NCBI RefSeq assembly: GCF_029952525.1
Contig: NZ_JASAOF010000002.1
Span: 558,001 to 622,000 of the forward strand
DNA length: 64,000 nt
Direction of reading: 5' to 3'
DNA from: Saccharopolyspora ipomoeae
Lineage (GTDB): Bacteria; Actinomycetota; Actinomycetes; Mycobacteriales; Pseudonocardiaceae
Below the pieces are notes generated by a model. It was not told the DNA's origin. It was given only the letters and a program-made list of their open reading frames with translations, and did no database searches. Position numbers and translations under genes: made by a program. Shown here piece after piece: positions 2,898-10,871 of the stretch. The first letter of the stretch is position 1, and each line of letters begins with the position of its first letter.

Positions 2898-4307
2898 TCA
2901 CGCGAGCTGGTTGGCGGCTTCGCGGTTCCACTGCTCGATCTGCTGGCCGATCTCGCGGGTGACCGTCGGTTTGTCGCGGACCAGTTCGTCGAGCATGTCG
3001 CACGGGATGGCCAGCAGCGTCAGCTCGGTCGTCGCGGTGATCGTGACGACCGCGGCGGTGCGGGTGACCGCGCCGTGCCCGAGGTAGTCGCCTTCGCGCA
3101 GCGTCCGCATCGACTCCGCGCCCGAAGCGATCGTCGCCGAGGCTTCTCCCTCGACCACGAGCGACAGCACCGACGGGACGCGGCCGGCGCGGAGGACGAT
3201 CTCGCCGGCCGCGTAGCGCTCGACGCGCATCCTGCTCGCGAGCTCGGGCGCCTGCTCCGGCTCGATGTGCAGCCGGGGCGCGAACCGGCGCAGCGCGGCC
3301 GCCGCTTCGTCCACGTCGTCGGCGAGCTGCGCGCGGACCCCGTTGAAGGCCAGGCCCGCGCGGCGAGCCGCGTACCAGGCCCGAGTGCGCAGCTCGGTGC
3401 GCACGCCCCAGTGGTCGGCGAAGTCCTTCATCGGGACCATGACGCAGTAGTTCATCAGCGGCGTGTGCGAGAAGGACGTCGGCGGGGACAGCGGAATGGT
3501 CTTCGGCGCTCCGGCGTGCAGCTCGGGGCTGATGTCCGCGGCCGTCTCGGTGAGGGTCCGGATCACCTTCTGCGGCGGGTCGCTCTCGCTGAACGCCAGG
3601 GTGACCATCAGGTAGAACGAGCCCGGTGGCTGGCTGTGGTTGGCGAAGGAGGCCTTCGACAGCGAGGAGTTCGGGATGATCCGGGTCCCGGTGAACGTCT
3701 GCAGGTGCACCGCCCGCCAGTTCACCTGGACGACCTGTCCGACCTCACCGTCGACCTCGAGCCAGTCGCCGATCGCGAACGGTTGCTCGAACAGCAGCAG
3801 CAGACCCGAGATGACGCCGCCGACCGCGTCCTGCAACGCCAGGCCGAGCACGATCGAGGTGACGCCGAGCGCCGCGAACAGGCCCCCGATGTCGGCGCCC
3901 CAGATCCACGCCAGCAGCACGGCCACCCCGATGGCGACGAGCAGCACCCGACCGAGCTCGATGAAGATGGTCGGCAAGCGCCGTCGCCACGAGCCCTGCG
4001 TGGCGTTGACGAACAACATCGCGTTCAGCGCCGAGAGCACGAACTGCAGGATGAGGACCCCGAGCGCGGTGGCGACGATGCGCACCCAGTTCGAGCCCTC
4101 CGTGACGCTGACCCGCCCGGACGCGAGGCCGAGCAGGATCAGGATCGCGACGCCCGGCACGATGTAGGTGCGCAGCAGCTGCAGCGGTTTCGCCAGCGGG
4201 TTGCCGCGCCGCACCAGCACTCCGTGCAGCTCGGTCAGCGCCACGGTCACCACCGGCAGCGCGATGATCACGACGATGTACCACCCGAACCACGGCTGCC
4301 CGGTCAT
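2898..4307 (-). CDS. MscS-type mechanosensitive channel with cyclic nucleotide-binding domain
   Basis: Membrane channel opened by membrane tension, probably tuned by a cyclic nucleotide. About 469 residues. The N-terminal half has several membrane helices, then the MscS pore and beta domain (ALGVTSIVLGLALQDAVGG and the DWLEVDGEVGQV region). Residues about 340-460 form a CRP-like cyclic nucleotide-binding fold. Its phosphate-binding cassette is partly degenerate: GDYLGHGAVTRTAAV where GE..A.....R.A is usual. The ATG at 4307 overlaps the TGA of the upstream cyclase-like gene as ATGA, so the two are translationally coupled. Mycobacterium tuberculosis has, as I recall, a similar channel/cyclase gene pair (Rv2434c/Rv2435c). 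Confidence 0.88.
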   Translation of the reverse strand: MTGQPWFGWYIVVIIALPVVTVALTELHGVLVRRGNPLAKPLQLLRTYIVPGVAILILLGLASGRVSVTEGSNWVRIVATALGVLILQFVLSALNAMLFVNATQGSWRRRLPTIFIELGRVLLVAIGVAVLLAWIWGADIGGLFAALGVTSIVLGLALQDAVGGVISGLLLLFEQPFAIGDWLEVDGEVGQVVQVNWRAVHLQTFTGTRIIPNSSLSKASFANHSQPPGSFYLMVTLAFSESDPPQKVIRTLTETAADISPELHAGAPKTIPLSPPTSFSHTPLMNYCVMVPMKDFADHWGVRTELRTRAWYAARRAGLAFNGVRAQLADDVDEAAAALRRFAPRLHIEPEQAPELASRMRVERYAAGEIVLRAGRVPSVLSLVVEGEASATIASGAESMRTLREGDYLGHGAVTRTAAVVTITATTELTLLAIPCDMLDELVRDKPTVTREIGQQIEQWNREAANQLA

Positions 4308-6478
4308 CGGCGAGGCCCTTCGTCCAGACGCCACACGGGCTGCCCGTCGACGTCCGCGACGACCTCCGCGAAGTCGAAGCTGTCCCGCACGCGGGCGCGG
4401 ACCGCGCTGCTGACGTAGATCCCCGGTTCCCCCGACGCCCGGGCCACGCGCCGAGCGGAGTCCAGCGCCTCACCCCACACGTCGTAGCCGGTGCGGCGGC
4501 CGACCAGGCCGCCGGCGAGCGAGCCGGTGTCGATGCCTGCCTCGACGACGAGCCGCTGGGCGTACCGCGCGTGGAATCCCGCGATGATGCGGAGGAGTTC
4601 GGTCGCGAAGTCGAGGGTGCGCTGCGCGGTGTCGACGCGCGGGACCACGAGGCCGCAGCTCGCGATGAACCTGAGCTGCGAGACGTGCACGAGTTCCACG
4701 CCCGCCGTCTCGGCCGCGTCCTCGACGCTGCGCACCAGCTCGTTCAACCGCTCTCGCCGCTCGGCGGCCTCACCCGGCCAGTCGGCTTCGTCGGGTCCGG
4801 TGAACGCGGCCACGATGACGCACGCGTCGTCGCTCTCCGTCGTGATGTCGTCCTCGCCCGCGCGGTAGCGCTCGGCCACCGGTTCCGGCATCACGTTCGT
4901 CAGCAACCGGTCGTTCTCCTCGTTGATCTCGTCGAGCTGGTCCTGCTTGGCCCGGAGCCGATCACCCATCGTGTTGAACGCGACCGTGAGATCACCGAAC
5001 TCGTCCCGGCTGCGCACCGGTATTCGCGTGTCGAGGTCGCCGCTGCTGAGCCGTTCCGCCCCGGCGAGCAGTCTCGTGATGGGTCGGGTGAACGCGCGGG
5101 CGATCATCATCGACGCCACGGTCACCAGCACCACGAGCAGCAGGGCGACCAGGCCGATGTTGCGGGTGAACGACCGGACCGGCGCGAGCGCCTCGGACTT
5201 GTGCATCTGGCCGACGACGGCCCAGTTCAGGTCGGGGTCGGCGAGCGGCGCGTAGTTGGTCAGCACCGTGTCACCGAGGTAGTTGTCCTCCTCCGCGATA
5301 CCGGTGCCGCCGTTGAGGCCGTCCCGGATGGAGTCCGAGTCGACCTCCTGGGCCAGGATGGGGTCCCGCTGCGCGACGATCTCGTCGACGATCCCGGGCG
5401 GCATGCCGTGGTTGTTGGCGGCGGTGCGGTAGGCCTCCGGGTCCTGGACCAGAAGCCGGGAGGTGGAGCGGAGGCGTTCGTCATCGCCGACGAGGTAGAC
5501 CTCCCCGGTCTCACCGAGCCCGGTTCCCTCCCAGTTCTCGTCGGCCGTCATCGCCTCGTTGATCCGCTCCACCGAGAGCTGGATGACCATCGCGCCGACC
5601 AGCTTCCCGCCGACGCCGATGGGCGTGATGCCGAAGGCGGCCGGGCGATCCATCTTCGGCATGTACTGCTCGAAGTCGGTCAGCTTCACCTCGTTGACGG
5701 CGTTCGAGCGGAAGACGTCGCGCACGCCCTCGGACAGCTCGGTCTTGTTGAACGCGTCGCCGAACAGGTTGGCGCCCAGTTGGATTCCGCCGTCGGCGCT
5801 GTAGACGACGTTGCCGCCCGGATCGACCAGCATCACGTCCTCGTAGCCGCGCTCGCGCTGCAGCGCCCGGAAGTACTCGCCGTACCGGCGGTGCGCCGCC
5901 GACCACGCGCTGCCGTCGCCCGCGTCGGTGATCGCGGGCTGCCGCGCCTCGTCCTGGTCGCCGGTGGAGAGGTAGTGCGCCTGGAGGTAGATCTGCTGGT
6001 TCGAGCGCGGCAGGAGGTTCTCGGCGGTCACGTTGGTGCCGGAGGTGGCGTGCACGCGGGGGACGAAGTCCTGCCGGTAGTACTGCTCGATCTTCTGGCG
6101 GTCCGCAGGCGATACGGGCGCGTCGGCGAGTTGGCCGAACGCGGCGCCGAACTCGCTCATCGCGGACCGGGTGCTCTCGGCGACGCTGGTGGCCGCGAGC
6201 GATTCGCGCACGTCGCCGAAGAGGGCCTCGGCTTGCCGCGCGCGGGCGTCGCGCGCGGTGATGATGTGGTCGTAGGCCTCCTTGCTGAGCGCGTTGCTGC
6301 CGGACTCGTAGCCGACGAGGCCCGCGACGAGCACCGCGATGATGCTGGCCGACAGCAGCATGACGAGGAGCCGCGATTGAATCGTCAGCCGTCCCCACAC
6401 CCAGGACTTCCGCAACTTCGGCGAATCGGAATTGTTCGCGCCGGGCTTGTCAGCGGACGAGTCGGGCCCCAGATCCAC
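4304..6478 (-). CDS. Membrane receptor with HAMP and degenerate class III cyclase domain
   Basis: Single-pass or two-pass sensor: a membrane helix near residues 35-60, a large extracytoplasmic Cache-like sensor (about 60-420), a second helix, a HAMP domain (RAFTRPITRLL..., about 450-500), a conserved linker (LLTNVMPEPVAERY) and a class III nucleotide cyclase fold to the C-terminus. Key residues are missing. The first metal Asp (FAD-type motif) is Ala in VIVAAF, the second is Leu in VSQLRFIA, and the adenine-specifying Lys is His. The late Arg (DSARR) remains. It may therefore not make cAMP. The GTG at 6478 is preferred over 6520 because AGCAGGAG lies 5 bases upstream. It overlaps the channel gene by ATGA. 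Confidence 0.85.
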   Translation of the reverse strand: MDLGPDSSADKPGANNSDSPKLRKSWVWGRLTIQSRLLVMLLSASIIAVLVAGLVGYESGSNALSKEAYDHIITARDARARQAEALFGDVRESLAATSVAESTRSAMSEFGAAFGQLADAPVSPADRQKIEQYYRQDFVPRVHATSGTNVTAENLLPRSNQQIYLQAHYLSTGDQDEARQPAITDAGDGSAWSAAHRRYGEYFRALQRERGYEDVMLVDPGGNVVYSADGGIQLGANLFGDAFNKTELSEGVRDVFRSNAVNEVKLTDFEQYMPKMDRPAAFGITPIGVGGKLVGAMVIQLSVERINEAMTADENWEGTGLGETGEVYLVGDDERLRSTSRLLVQDPEAYRTAANNHGMPPGIVDEIVAQRDPILAQEVDSDSIRDGLNGGTGIAEEDNYLGDTVLTNYAPLADPDLNWAVVGQMHKSEALAPVRSFTRNIGLVALLLVVLVTVASMMIARAFTRPITRLLAGAERLSSGDLDTRIPVRSRDEFGDLTVAFNTMGDRLRAKQDQLDEINEENDRLLTNVMPEPVAERYRAGEDDITTESDDACVIVAAFTGPDEADWPGEAAERRERLNELVRSVEDAAETAGVELVHVSQLRFIASCGLVVPRVDTAQRTLDFATELLRIIAGFHARYAQRLVVEAGIDTGSLAGGLVGRRTGYDVWGEALDSARRVARASGEPGIYVSSAVRARVRDSFDFAEVVADVDGQPVWRLDEGPRR

Positions 6479-6646
6479 ACCATCTCCTGCTGTTCGATCA
6501 ACGCAGCCGTCCGCTGCCACGGAATCGCCACGCTAGGATCGATCTTCAAGAACAGCAATTCGGGTTTCGCCCGACCGGGTCCGAATTCGCCCCACCGCAG
6601 GAATTCCAACCGAATCCGGGCCTTCCCCCTCAAGGCACGCCCGGGT

Positions 6647-7867
6647 TCATGCCTGGTCTTCCACTCGCCCCAGTCCGAGCAGTCGTGGGGCTGCGAGCAC
6701 CGCGATCGCCCCGACGAGGACGGCGGCACCGATGATGACCGCGCGCAGCGACGTGGCCTCGGCCGCCGGGCCCGCGAGTGCCGCGCCGAGGGGCATCAAT
6801 CCCCACGCCAGCACCCGGTGTGCGCTGGTCACCCGTCCCATCAGCGGACGCGGCGTCAGCCGTTGACGGTTGGCGGACGACAACACGTTCCACGCCCCGG
6901 CACCCAGACCCATCACCAGGTAGGCCGGCCAGGCCACCCAAGGGGAACCTCCGGTACCCAGCACGGCGATGCCCGCCGCCAGGATGAGCAGAGCACCGAC
7001 CATCACCGGTCCGCCGCCCCAGCGCAGCGCCGCCCGGGTGGCCAGTGGCGCCGCGACGAGGGCACCGACCGCGGTGCACACGAGCAGGGTGGCGACCGAT
7101 GCCTCCGGAAGCCGCAGCGACTCGATCGCGTGGAGGAACGCCACGGCGTTGACCCCGCTGGTCACGAACGCGGTCAGTCCGACAACGCCCACCACCGCGC
7201 GCAACGTCGGCTGCCGCACCAGGAACCGGACCCCTTCGAGGACCTCGGTGCGCAACGCCGTGATGTTGCTGCTCACCGGGCGCTCGGCACTCACGGTGAC
7301 CGTGGCCGCCAGCGCGCCGGCGATGATGAACGCCATTCCCACTGCCAGGAAGCACAATTCCGGTCTCCACGCGAAGAGCCCGGCGGCCACGAGCGGGCCC
7401 GCGATCTCCACTCCGACCGTCTCGGTGCTGACCACCCGCCCGTTGGCACGCTCCAGTTCGGACGGACCGGCCAGCGTCACCAGCAGGGTCTGACCGGCCG
7501 AGTCCGCGAACGTCTCGGCACTGCTGAGCAGGAACGCGCACACCGCCAAGGCTGTGACGTCGGGACTTCCCGCCGCGATCAGCGCGCTCAGCGACACCGT
7601 CAGCCCACCGCGGATCACGAGGCTGACGATGAACGCCGTCCGCGGCGACCATCGATCGACCAGAGCCCCGGCGGGCAGGGCCACGAGCAGCCAGGGCAAC
7701 ACCGAGGCGACCGCCACGATCGACACCGACAGCGGATCACGCGTGGTCACCGCGCTGAACAACGGCAACGCCGCCGTGAGCACCCCGTCGCCGACCGACG
7801 CCGCACCCCACGACGCGAGCAATCGCCGGAAGTCGCGGCTCCGAACGCCCACCACCGAAGCCCCCAT
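6647..7867 (-). CDS. MFS exporter of the RiPP cluster
   Basis: 12-helix major facilitator protein of the drug/siderophore exporter type (about 406 residues). MFS landmarks include DRWSPRTAF in the loop after helix 2 and a repeated helix pattern. The start at 7867 is chosen for GGGAGG 9 bases upstream and because MGASVVGVRSRDFRRLL is a typical MFS N-terminus. A GTG at 7912 overlapping the DUF5825 stop (GTGA) is an alternative that adds 15 residues. It is the last gene of a four-gene minus-strand unit with precursor, radical SAM and DUF5825 genes, so export of the modified peptide and self-protection is the natural reading. This role is inferred from position only. Confidence 0.85.
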   Translation of the reverse strand: MGASVVGVRSRDFRRLLASWGAASVGDGVLTAALPLFSAVTTRDPLSVSIVAVASVLPWLLVALPAGALVDRWSPRTAFIVSLVIRGGLTVSLSALIAAGSPDVTALAVCAFLLSSAETFADSAGQTLLVTLAGPSELERANGRVVSTETVGVEIAGPLVAAGLFAWRPELCFLAVGMAFIIAGALAATVTVSAERPVSSNITALRTEVLEGVRFLVRQPTLRAVVGVVGLTAFVTSGVNAVAFLHAIESLRLPEASVATLLVCTAVGALVAAPLATRAALRWGGGPVMVGALLILAAGIAVLGTGGSPWVAWPAYLVMGLGAGAWNVLSSANRQRLTPRPLMGRVTSAHRVLAWGLMPLGAALAGPAAEATSLRAVIIGAAVLVGAIAVLAAPRLLGLGRVEDQA

Positions 7868-7908
7868 GCCGGCCGACCTCCCACACGGCTCACCGAAGTC
7901 CACCGCGA

Positions 7909-8490
7909 TCACACGGCCATCGCCGGTACCGGCCAGCGTCGCAGCCGCGCCGGTGCCCACCACGTGAGGCGTCCGGTCTCCACCAACAGGCCGTTCTCAA
8001 CGAGAAGCGCGACCGCAGCCGGGTCGCACTCATCCGGATCCACTCCACTGGCGAGCTTGTGCACGACTTCTCGCAAGTAGGGCTCGTCAATGGTGTAGCA
8101 GTCGAGCACGCCGGATCGCCGATCACGTATCTGAACGAACCCAGGTCCCTGCCGGAGGACGCATTTGCCCGGGTGGAACGTGCGGCCCCATTCCTCGACC
8201 TCCGCGCTCGTCCCCGTCGGTGGGGGGAGGTGCGCGAACGACCTCCACCCCGGTGGGACCTCGACGACCGTCCACTCGACCCGTACCGCCCAAGCCGCCA
8301 GTTCCCGAAGCAGATCAAGGGTGTGACGCGCCGTGTCGTCGGCCAGCCAGACCGGCTCCGCGACCACTACCCGCCGGATGCCCCTGGTGACCAATGATCG
8401 TGCTTGCTCGGGCGCCGCAGCCGAAATCGGCTGAATCAACACAGGTTCAACGCCAGGACGACCCCGATGGTGCAGGTAGCCTTTGATCAT
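7909..8490 (-). CDS. DUF5825-like RiPP cluster protein
   Basis: 193 residues, no membrane segment and no catalytic motif I can name. It resembles DUF5825 proteins, which occur next to radical SAM C-methyltransferases in actinobacterial RiPP clusters; I make this match from memory of the pattern. The N-terminal half looks like an alpha/beta fold (VLIQPIS, VVVAEPVWL, VEWTVVEVP). The second half has two cysteines (GKCVLRQG and VLDCYTID) and a C-terminal helical segment (DPAAVALLVENGLL) like a small winged helix. It lies 9 bases after the radical SAM gene, so it is co-translated with it. It could be a partner subunit or a peptide-binding chaperone. Confidence 0.7.
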   Translation of the reverse strand: MIKGYLHHRGRPGVEPVLIQPISAAAPEQARSLVTRGIRRVVVAEPVWLADDTARHTLDLLRELAAWAVRVEWTVVEVPPGWRSFAHLPPPTGTSAEVEEWGRTFHPGKCVLRQGPGFVQIRDRRSGVLDCYTIDEPYLREVVHKLASGVDPDECDPAAVALLVENGLLVETGRLTWWAPARLRRWPVPAMAV

Positions 8491-8499
8491 CAGCCGCGG

Positions 8500-10317
8500 T
8501 CACCCGATCCTCAACTGCCGCTGATTGTTGGCTTCGGGGACGACGTGCACGTAGTGTCCGTCCTCAGCGAATAACAGCCCCGCAGCCTGCCAACGCAGGA
8601 GTACGTCCTCAATGCCCGTTCCGAACTCGGCGTGCAGTGTGGACAACGACCTAGGACGGTCGAGCATCTCGAACAGGACCACGTCGCTTCCGGCAATCAC
8701 ATGTTCGCGCTGGCCGAAGGGCGGGCGGTCGTCCAAGATCAGAATCTCGGCTTCCATCCGCACCCACTCCAATTCGCTCACCGCATGATCATGCCGCCAC
8801 GCACGCACGGCCCCCAGCAAGCACCTTTCGACGTCGGCCCCTATCCCTGCGGGTGCGCTGGCGAACAGGTACGCGATTTCAGCCAATTCTTCGGGTGGTA
8901 GGGCGTAGTTGCGTGCGTATTGGGGATCGGGGTTGCGCTTGTCAAAGCCGAGGTCAGGACGGTCGAAGTACGGGCTGAAGCGCTCCAGAGCAATCCGGTC
9001 GGCCCCGTCCATCGGCGGAAGGTGATGCAAGCTGGGCATCTGGTCGATCACCGCGAGGTAGTCCTCGTCGGACTCATCCGGAAATCCGTAGAGGTAGTTC
9101 CACATGACAGTGATCCCCAGCGAACTCGCATCCCGGAGAAAACGCACGTTCTGACACCCACTCACGCCCTTGTCCATGAGCCTGAGGACACGGCTGCTGA
9201 GGTTCTCGATCCCCGGTTGGACCTGGACGATACCTGCGTTCACGAGCCGACGCATCTGGTCGATTCGAAGGTTCGACTTGACCTCACATTGGATCCGCAG
9301 GTCAAATCCGCTTTCCTCGAGGTAAGGCAAGACCGTGTTGAAATAGGCCATGTCGAGAATGTTGTCCACAAGATAGATATCGAGCACCTGGTGCTGAGCG
9401 GCGAGCCCGAGCAACTCGTCGCGGAACCGCTGCGGACTCTTGCTGCGGAACTCCATGAAGGAGCCGTTGAGGCCGCAGAACTTGCAGTGGTGCTTTTCGC
9501 CCCACCAACAGCCGCGGGCTCCTTCAACGACCAATTTGGGTTCTACCTCGGTTGCCGCGGCCGAGGAAGCATGTCTCTCGAAGTAATCTTCAAACTCCGG
9601 CGAAACGATGTCTTCCGGCGGCAGCGGAGCGGCGCTCGGGGAGTTCGCACCGATCTCGGACTTGTCGCGCCAGCACAGTCCCGGAATTCCACGCGGACTC
9701 TCACCCGATGCGAGGCTGTCGAGGAGAGCGGGGAACGCGGCTTCACCTTCGCCACGAACCACGTAGTCGACGAACTCAAAATTCCGATGCCACGCCGAAC
9801 CCTGCGTCCCTTCGCAGTTCGCTCCCCCCAGCACTGTCGTCATTCCAGGGTTGATCCTCTTCAGTTCACGAGCCAACGCCAGCGACGCCGCATTTTGCTG
9901 GAACGTCGTGGTGAACCCCACAACGGCGCCGCAGCACTCCGTGAGACTCCTGGCATACATCGAAACCCAGTCCGGGATCAGCTCGTGCAGACGCACGCAC
10001 AGCCGGAGTGTTTCCTCGTCGACATCACCGCTGTGCGCCGCGCAGAACTCGTCGACACGCCAATATCGGTCGCCGTAGAGAGCCGAGGTGAAGACCCAGT
10101 CGCCGATCCCTTGAAAATAGCTGTCCAGGCTGAAGAAGTCGTATTCACGCAACCCGGTGCCGACTTCACGGTACATCCAATCGAAGAAGTCCAGGTTGGC
10201 ATCCACAACAGTGACCCGGTGCACCCCACCGCGCTCTACGGCTGCTTTGAGGATGCCGCACGCCAGCGACGGGTAGGAAACCGACGCCCACGGCATGTTG
10301 ACCAACGTCACGTCCAC
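8500..10317 (-). CDS. RiPP-maturation radical SAM protein, B12-dependent C-methyltransferase type
   Basis: 605 residues. The N-terminal part (about 1-220) is a cobalamin-binding-like Rossmann region (MPWASVSYPSLACGILKAA; GGANCEGTQG; VVRGEGE) and the middle is the radical SAM barrel. The [4Fe-4S] cysteines are C270-x7-C278-x2-C281 (GCWWGEKHHCKFCG), the extended spacing seen in the bacteriocin-maturation family TIGR03975. The last 80 or so residues look like a small winged-helix peptide-recognition segment. Family knowledge predicts methylation of unactivated carbons on a precursor peptide. The GTG start has GGAGGTGGG 5 bases upstream. The precursor lies 86 bases upstream on the same strand. 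By eye, codon use is less GC-biased than in the neighbours, which suggests transfer. Confidence 0.88.
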   Translation of the reverse strand: MDVTLVNMPWASVSYPSLACGILKAAVERGGVHRVTVVDANLDFFDWMYREVGTGLREYDFFSLDSYFQGIGDWVFTSALYGDRYWRVDEFCAAHSGDVDEETLRLCVRLHELIPDWVSMYARSLTECCGAVVGFTTTFQQNAASLALARELKRINPGMTTVLGGANCEGTQGSAWHRNFEFVDYVVRGEGEAAFPALLDSLASGESPRGIPGLCWRDKSEIGANSPSAAPLPPEDIVSPEFEDYFERHASSAAATEVEPKLVVEGARGCWWGEKHHCKFCGLNGSFMEFRSKSPQRFRDELLGLAAQHQVLDIYLVDNILDMAYFNTVLPYLEESGFDLRIQCEVKSNLRIDQMRRLVNAGIVQVQPGIENLSSRVLRLMDKGVSGCQNVRFLRDASSLGITVMWNYLYGFPDESDEDYLAVIDQMPSLHHLPPMDGADRIALERFSPYFDRPDLGFDKRNPDPQYARNYALPPEELAEIAYLFASAPAGIGADVERCLLGAVRAWRHDHAVSELEWVRMEAEILILDDRPPFGQREHVIAGSDVVLFEMLDRPRSLSTLHAEFGTGIEDVLLRWQAAGLLFAEDGHYVHVVPEANNQRQLRIG

Positions 10318-10403
10318 TCGATCCCACCTCCGACACGATCGACGACGAAACGGGGGTGGAGCGGCGGCGATGCGTGCGTCCCCAGGGCCGCTCCACCTGT
10401 CCG

Positions 10404-10478
10404 TTACTTCGAGATCCGCACGCCGGTGGTGCCGCCGCCGATCGCGTGCGGCGAGTTGTGCACCGTCTTCTTCTTCAT
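10404..10478 (-). CDS. 24-residue RiPP precursor peptide candidate
   Basis: A very small gene with a textbook start: GGAGGTGAGCGC directly before ATG (site 10479-10490). It begins MKKKTVHNSPHA, has a central IGGGTTG segment and ends VRISK, then TAA. The basic N-terminus could be a minimal leader and the Gly/Thr-rich second half the core; it has no Cys or Trp. It lies immediately upstream of the radical SAM gene in the same direction and is the only small ORF in the cluster with a strong ribosome site. A longer reading from 10604 exists but has no ribosome site and crosses the untranslated leader, so I reject it. The product is unproven. Confidence 0.75.
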   Translation of the reverse strand: MKKKTVHNSPHAIGGGTTGVRISK

Positions 10479-10490
10479 GCGCTCACCTCC

Positions 10491-10871
10491 TACATACTTC
10501 GATCTTGGACCGCAGGAATCGTTGGACCTGCGGCCAGGAATCGGACCTGAGAGCGGCACGAGTTGTGCGGTTCGCGACGCTACCAACCAATGGGCCGCTT
10601 CCAAACCCCAAAATGACAGCCTTGCGCAACACGACGCCTCTCAATTTTCACCTATTTACCAAAATTAGGTTCGTTATTACCAAAGAAGGAAGCGCAACGT
10701 CGCCGAAATTCGAGTAGATCACGCAGAAGGAGCACGCCGGTCGATGCGTTAATCGCCCTCGATCAGGGCAGCTGGCGGCGTGAGGACGCGGTACCGCTAC
10801 GCCAGCTCGACGCGGGTGGACGACCGGTCGCGCAGCGGTGGCCGAACGCGATCGAGCGGTGCTCCCGCGCT
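10491..10871. promoter_or_regulatory. AT-rich upstream region of the RiPP cluster with leader hairpin
   Basis: No gene seen. In the mRNA leader of the precursor, CCGCAGG (10510-10516) pairs with CCTGCGG (10527-10533) around a 10-base loop. The segment AGGAATCG occurs twice (10514-10521 and 10536-10543), each followed by GGACCTG. Bases about 10610-10700 are strikingly AT-rich for this genome. A weak minus-strand promoter TTGGAA-N16-TAGCGT is possible near 10575-10602 but is not secure. Confidence 0.45.

Follow-up and report, generated by a model that had tools for sequence, protein, structure and literature searches.

The 64,000-nucleotide stretch of Saccharopolyspora ipomoeae DNA analysed here (the window) carries on its minus strand a four-gene operon which, with a probability of about 0.8, is a RiPP operon related to that of the clavusporins and belongs to a separate clade without a cluster peptidase. 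The genes run in one direction in the order precursor, B12-dependent radical SAM maturase, DUF5825 protein and MFS transporter. In all 12 loci of the clade the core peptide carries an invariant V-R-[IV]-S motif near its C-terminus, and the DUF5825 protein and the maturase apparently share a domain.

Operon layout and the maturase

The predicted B12-dependent radical SAM peptide C-methyltransferase comprises 605 amino acids (8500..10317, minus strand; TIGR03975, PF02310, PF04055) and is followed by the DUF5825 partner protein of 193 amino acids (7909..8490, minus strand; PF19142, E 3.7e-51) and the MFS transporter (6647..7912, minus strand; PF07690 (MFS_1), E 2.2e-26). The precursor gene and the maturase gene are separated by 86 bases and the maturase and DUF5825 genes by 9; the transporter gene lies 41 bases further on when its start is ATG 7867 and overlaps by 4 bases when it is GTG 7912. 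Alignments of the transporter to its homologues in loci L009-L012 cover 403-409 residues, fitting ATG 7867, and the alignment to L025 covers 441. Positions, direction and spacing of the four genes agree exactly with the original prediction, and its reading of them as a compact RiPP operon with a TIGR03975-type B12/radical SAM enzyme, a DUF5825 partner and an exporter-like MFS protein is borne out. No consensus promoter was found in the sequence, and the two terminators compare with 3.3 expected by shuffling, so that neither gives a usable signal. The source genome (6.63 Mb, 47 contigs, 98.7% complete) contains a single DUF5825 match at E ≤ 0.001 and a single TIGR03975 match above cut-off.

The maturase scores 589.7 bits against TIGR03975 (RiPP maturation radical SAM C-methyltransferase; cut-off 281.85, E 6.5e-177), covering positions 1-604 of the 606 of the profile, and PF04055 (radical SAM) is also above its Pfam cut-off. 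Part of a B12-binding domain is recognized at residues 132-199 (9721..9924, minus strand; PF02310, 33.6 bits, cut-off 32.1). The [4Fe-4S] motif CWWGEKHHCKFC (9475..9510, minus strand), of the form C-x7-C-x2-C, is present in every one of the 97 homologues whose alignment exceeds 480 residues; both the cysteine motif and the N-terminal cobalamin-like region attributed to the enzyme from its letters were thus confirmed. TokK (PDB 7kdx) is the only solved structure matched by sequence at E ≤ 0.001 (E 1.3e-6), the similarity extending over maturase residues 146-321. TokK differs in its substrate, a carbapenem precursor rather than a ribosomal peptide. The same genome encodes a second, partial TIGR03975-like protein (L104, G000:C44:205377-205664; 81 bits, below cut-off), whose open frame of 308 amino acids is 34% identical to the window maturase across 264 amino acids. 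In two family genomes (G115 and G190) broken maturase/DUF5825 remains were found (L139 and L140), with stop codons within the DUF5825 match, and the operon is therefore decaying in some lineages.

A larger cluster around the four genes was considered and rejected, since the five neighbouring genes of the window that were compared recur (E ≤ 1e-20) in none of the 11 other clade loci; the comparison gave a single weak match, to a locus that does not belong to the clade (L026). Adjacent to the four genes are those for a HAMP/cache-type protein that includes a nucleotide cyclase domain (4304-6520, minus strand; PF00672 and PF00211 above cut-off, dCache_1 below) and for a channel-like membrane protein (2898-4334, minus strand) whose C-terminus resembles, by eye, a cyclic-nucleotide-binding domain; the two are a possible cyclic-nucleotide signalling pair.

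The precursor peptide and its relatives

The precursor is a peptide of 24 amino acids (10404..10478, minus strand), consisting of the leader MKKKTVHNSP and the core HAIGGGTTGVRISK. Its start codon, ATG 10478, stands behind the Shine-Dalgarno sequence AGGAGG (10486..10491, minus strand). A TTG-initiated frame of 66 amino acids in the list of open reading frames is a mechanical extension of this 24-residue frame. An identical peptide is encoded in Saccharopolyspora endophytica (L009), with four silent codon differences including one in the stop codon. Changes among close relatives are mostly silent, the ratio of silent to replacement codons (stop codon included) being 4:0 against L009, 6:1 against L010 and 5:2 against L025.

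Relatives were sought in 89 loci, namely the window, the best 80 of 513 maturase relatives and eight loci from family genomes (L135-L138, L150-L153). In 84 of the 89, a loose leader pattern identified a small ORF that has a leader ending in N-[DNS]-P and a purine-rich ribosome site and lies no more than 650 bases ahead of the maturase gene; this count is partly fitted, as the leader pattern and the upstream search come from the same data, and scarcity of the pattern elsewhere serves as the control. Because a small ORF with a like leader precedes the maturase in so many loci, the precursor is considered real. The original prediction had named conservation of this ORF beside homologous radical SAM/DUF5825 genes as the check on its claim, and the claim survived it. 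As the control, the strict pattern M-x-[KRQ]-x-x-[VI]-x-[NSHG]-[NDS]-P was scanned against 12,849 starts of small ORFs, taken from both strands of these loci; it matched 87 of the 88 assigned precursors and only two other starts, one of them a further precursor of L083. The conservation and this control together rule out a chance ORF. The leader is 10 residues long in all 88 peptides, partly as a result of the start chosen among several.

By the loose pattern no precursor was found upstream of the maturase in L023, L052, L069, L072 and L150. In L023 a large TPR-repeat protein (L023:3544-5826) is encoded directly upstream of the maturase; in L069 a divergent small ORF, MKKTIVHGDPKKQGSESSKVVYPYRPHQD, at offset 8729 of the minus strand and thus not where a precursor is expected, fits the strict leader pattern. 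Four Streptomyces loci (L036, L047, L060 and L083) have two precursor genes each, and in the two that were scanned, L036 and L083, a SAM-dependent methyltransferase-like gene lies downstream, constituting another variant. A leader of this kind was not seen in eight more distant DUF5825-type loci outside the 89 (L141-L144, L146-L149), six of which gave no candidate and two of which (L143, L144) gave unlike candidates; also outside the 89 are L145, which is without a maturase match, and the decayed L139 and L140.

A peptidase-free clade beside the clavusporins

Clavusporins reportedly have surface activity and an effect on development, in work of 2025 attributed to Zhang, Li, Overton and Seyedsayamdost. 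Locus L155 on the Streptomyces clavuligerus plasmid pSCL4, which we infer from its name and gene content to be the clavusporin locus, carries the genes in the order MFS, S9 peptidase, unannotated precursor, 'RiPP maturation radical SAM C-methyltransferase' and DUF5825. It resembles the window operon in its B12/radical SAM enzyme (49% identity), its DUF5825 protein, its MFS protein and its unannotated small precursor ORF, MQKDVIHNDPLAGDEENRKPSVGITITVPFRNAEDADED, with a like leader of 10 residues (MQKDVIHNDP versus MKKKTVHNSP in the window). It differs in that the MFS and S9 peptidase genes stand ahead of the precursor, whereas the window operon has no peptidase and places the MFS gene last, and in its core of 29 residues with an SVGITITVPF block and an acidic tail, as against 14 residues with GVRIS.

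According to PMC12257519 (citing Zhang et al., Nat Chem Biol 2025), a B12-radical SAM/DUF5825 pair homologous to that of the window C-methylates clavusporins, and MpcP, a prolyl oligopeptidase, is described in PMC12951456 as taking off the clavusporin leader. Among clavusporin-type features the window operon thus has the B12-radical SAM gene adjacent to the DUF5825 gene and the small precursor with a like leader; absent from it are the cluster prolyl oligopeptidase and the hydrophobic core block, and because these two are missing the operon is filed as a sister variant and not as a clavusporin locus. Two other known systems are comparable. The YHxYxY biphenomycin-like clusters likewise have a pair of a (second) B12-radical SAM enzyme and a DUF5825 protein adjoining RiPP genes; they also carry an MNIO, an MNIO partner and a first B12-radical SAM enzyme (PMC12257519), none of which is among the four genes of the operon. 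B12/radical SAM methylation of peptide carbons is also known from PoyC (C-beta methylation) and from the bottromycin enzyme BotRMT2, which methylates valines (PMC11285071), but these systems have other precursor families, and the available text of that source mentions no DUF5825. The exact arrangement of the window operon (without S9 peptidase, with MFS last and with a VR[IV]S core) was not found in a limited search of the open-access literature. The statement that no product of this exact arrangement is described therefore stands as far as that literature goes; it needs amending for the enzyme pair, which, according to PMC12257519, is already associated with a described product type. What is new is a distinct clade that has a VR[IV]S core and lacks a cluster peptidase, together with the domain apparently shared by DUF5825 and the maturase.

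Among the best 80 of 513 maturase relatives, an S9 peptidase homologue was found in the fetched flanks of 61 loci, and an MFS homologue lies upstream in 53; the usual order of this type is therefore MFS, peptidase, precursor, maturase and DUF5825. The window and 11 further loci (L009-L013, L025, L067, L135-L138) have instead the order precursor, maturase, DUF5825 and MFS, the MFS gene being downstream of the DUF5825 gene in all 12. No S9 peptidase match (E ≤ 1e-4 or 1e-5) was obtained in the fetched flanks of any of the 12, which extended upstream for approximately 6 kb in most and 1.2 kb in L012, so that the predicted absence of a peptidase from the cluster holds across the clade. When all ORFs of 120 amino acids or more were compared with one another, only the maturase, the DUF5825 protein and the MFS protein, besides antisense shadows, proved common to the 12 loci; with the precursor, the shared cassette therefore consists of four genes. 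Thirteen of the 89 loci have neither a peptidase nor the architecture of the clade. In a quick maturase tree of 97 rows, built without bootstraps and with long branches flagged by the program, the 12 loci (Saccharopolyspora, Actinopolyspora and kin) form one clade (SH-aLRT 100). All 64 peptidase-bearing rows fall within a branch of 72 rows (SH-aLRT 95), and both this clade and a clade of five Streptomyces loci lacking the peptidase stand outside that branch. Because the clade branches outside the peptidase-bearing loci, the absence of the peptidase may be ancestral and the peptidase a later gain, a reading that is favoured rather than proven.

The window leader (10449..10478, minus strand) ends in Pro10, and T5, V6, N8 and P10 are invariant in the 12 clade peptides; the peptidase-bearing loci show a similar leader pattern. 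Near the C-terminus V-R-[IV]-S is likewise invariant, with Ile in the third place in nine peptides and Val in three, while the preceding nine or ten residues vary; in the window the motif forms part of GVRIS (10410..10424, minus strand), which contains the proposed methylation sites Val20 and Ile22. Clade cores are 14-16 residues long (14 in the window), with a median of 14.5 versus 29 in the peptidase type, and contain 2-4 Val and Ile versus 4-8. The best 8-mer of each core contains 3-4 beta-branched residues in the clade (median 4) and 3-7 in the peptidase type (median 6), with median hydropathies of 0.71 and 1.9. By these counts the V/I/T-rich hydrophobic block of the peptidase-bearing loci is absent from the clade cores. 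Loci with neither feature have cores of intermediate length (median 19.5) with 2-7 Val and Ile, most of them with a hydrophobic block. Whole-core hydropathy was discarded as a mark of surfactant loss, for it does not separate the types as expected and only the best-8-mer measure does: the median GRAVY is -0.01 in the clade, higher than the -0.88 of the peptidase type, where acidic flanks lower it. The net charge of the core lies between 0 and +3 in the clade, and its median in the peptidase type is -5.

It is rather unlikely that the operon is an ordinary clavusporin pathway minus its peptidase gene, making the same hydrophobic type of surfactant with a genomic S9 peptidase standing in. The similar leader and enzyme pair, the whole-core hydropathy just given and the retention of Pro10 in all 12 clade peptides in spite of the missing cluster peptidase are consistent with such a pathway, and a candidate stand-in exists: the best match in the genome to the cluster peptidase of Streptomyces lydicus is encoded at C21, an S9 protein that is 35% identical to it across residues 9-597 of 616. 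The C21 protein, however, is found at full length in 20 of 22 genomes of the genus and split into two pieces in one more, whereas 6 of the 22 have DUF5825. It looks like a housekeeping enzyme, which may have a general role in leader removal; being near-universal in the genus, this best S9 match was rejected as a dedicated peptidase encoded elsewhere in the genome. The position of the clade outside the branch of the peptidase-bearing loci moreover requires no loss of the gene, and the clade cores lack the alternating V/I/T block. Retention of the leader, with the modified 24-mer as the active form, is unlikely. The peptide is already short and the genes common to the clade loci include no peptidase, but conservation falls after Pro10 (positions 11-19 are each variable), as at a border between leader and core, and RiPP peptidases are often encoded outside the cluster (PMC10885120).

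DUF5825 and the proposed pathway

The DUF5825 gene adjoins the maturase gene in 79 of the 80 loci of the best maturase relatives (80 of 513), the exception (L057) being cut by a contig end. A confident AlphaFold2 model (mean pLDDT 93.1, pTM 0.89), for which 65 sequences were used, has an N-terminal half of alpha/beta type; its C-terminal half comprises three strands followed by two helices and a hairpin, an order that we read as winged-helix-like. Modelled alone, the C-terminal half reached pLDDT 87.1 and pTM 0.76. No solved fold was matched at E ≤ 0.001 by Foldseek or at E ≤ 1 by profile, and no Pfam family other than DUF5825 was found in more than two of the 65 members. TbiB1 with its leader peptide (5v1u_A, 5v1v_A) was returned by Foldseek at a probability of 0.54-0.60 with E 0.8-1; unrelated chains were better by E, and an unrelated ribosomal chain, 8rxh, had a probability of 0.63. 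The modelled resemblance to TbiB1 and its RRE (PqqD-like) fold is therefore a hint only, and, as Foldseek gave no solved fold at E ≤ 0.001, leader binding by DUF5825 is a guess.

The C-terminal half of DUF5825 is similar to the C-terminal region of the maturase (residues 481-605; 8503..8877, minus strand). With hhalign, maturase residues 481-568 gave Prob 77 (E 2e-5) and the overlapping last segment, 518-605, Prob 39, versus at most 2.9 for the 12 other segments. Full-length DUF5825 against maturase residues 441-605 gave Prob 73.6 over 93 columns with a score of 38.6, for which the controls were 20.3 (best of 30 column shuffles) and 16.1 (reversed). The result depends on the alignment mode, the C-terminal half giving Prob 1.8 in global mode and the local modes 41, 77, 39 and 73.6. 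On these profile comparisons the two regions are apparently a shared domain, which is possibly the leader-binding one.

From the gene content the following pathway is proposed. The 24-residue precursor would be made from its own strong ribosome site, as its sequence and conservation suggest. The leader of 10 residues, centred on KTVHN(S/D/N)P, would then be recognized by the pair of maturase and DUF5825, possibly via their related C-terminal domains. The B12/radical SAM enzyme probably decorates the peptide with methyl groups, to judge from its sequence family, and would methylate unactivated carbons, likeliest the branched beta carbons of Val20 and Ile22; these two are proposed because of the enzyme family and because V and I/V are the residues kept. 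Ile13, Thr17 and Thr18 of the window peptide, or the Val that directly precedes GVR in six clade members, could be alternative targets, and V-R-[IV]-S may be conserved for another reason, e.g. transport or a receptor. That the enzyme instead forms another bond or a rearrangement, as do the B12/radical SAM enzymes PbsB and BipD of biphenomycin-type clusters, which crosslink aromatic residues (PMC12257519, PMC12707348), is improbable in view of clade cores devoid of Phe, Tyr, Trp and Cys, a TIGR03975 methyltransferase score far above the cut-off and a DUF5825 pairing that is the one of the methylating clavusporin pair (PMC12257519). After methylation the MFS protein would export the product, and the leader would be removed after Pro10 by a peptidase encoded elsewhere, before or after export, or be kept.

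A wider scenario is offered tentatively and at well under even odds. The clavusporin superfamily would have in this clade a second and older branch, with products other than surfactants. These would be short and mostly basic peptides, spaced by Gly and Ser, in which a single conserved V-R-[IV]-S tail is beta-methylated twice, and they would serve as a signal or an antibiotic. Leader removal would at first have occurred in trans, the S9 peptidase being recruited later in the Streptomyces-type branch, and DUF5825, or at least its C-terminal half, would derive from the C-terminal domain of the maturase as a split substrate-binding unit.

The operon is a very small candidate C-methylation system, with a substrate of 24 residues and a single methylase, partner and exporter. 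Variation across the 12 loci singles out two residues, so that experiments can ask directly how sites are selected, what DUF5825 does and whether the leader is needed. The clade keeps the enzymes and the leader but not the hydrophobic block, and thereby raises the question of whether the surfactant role named for clavusporins extends to the superfamily as a whole.
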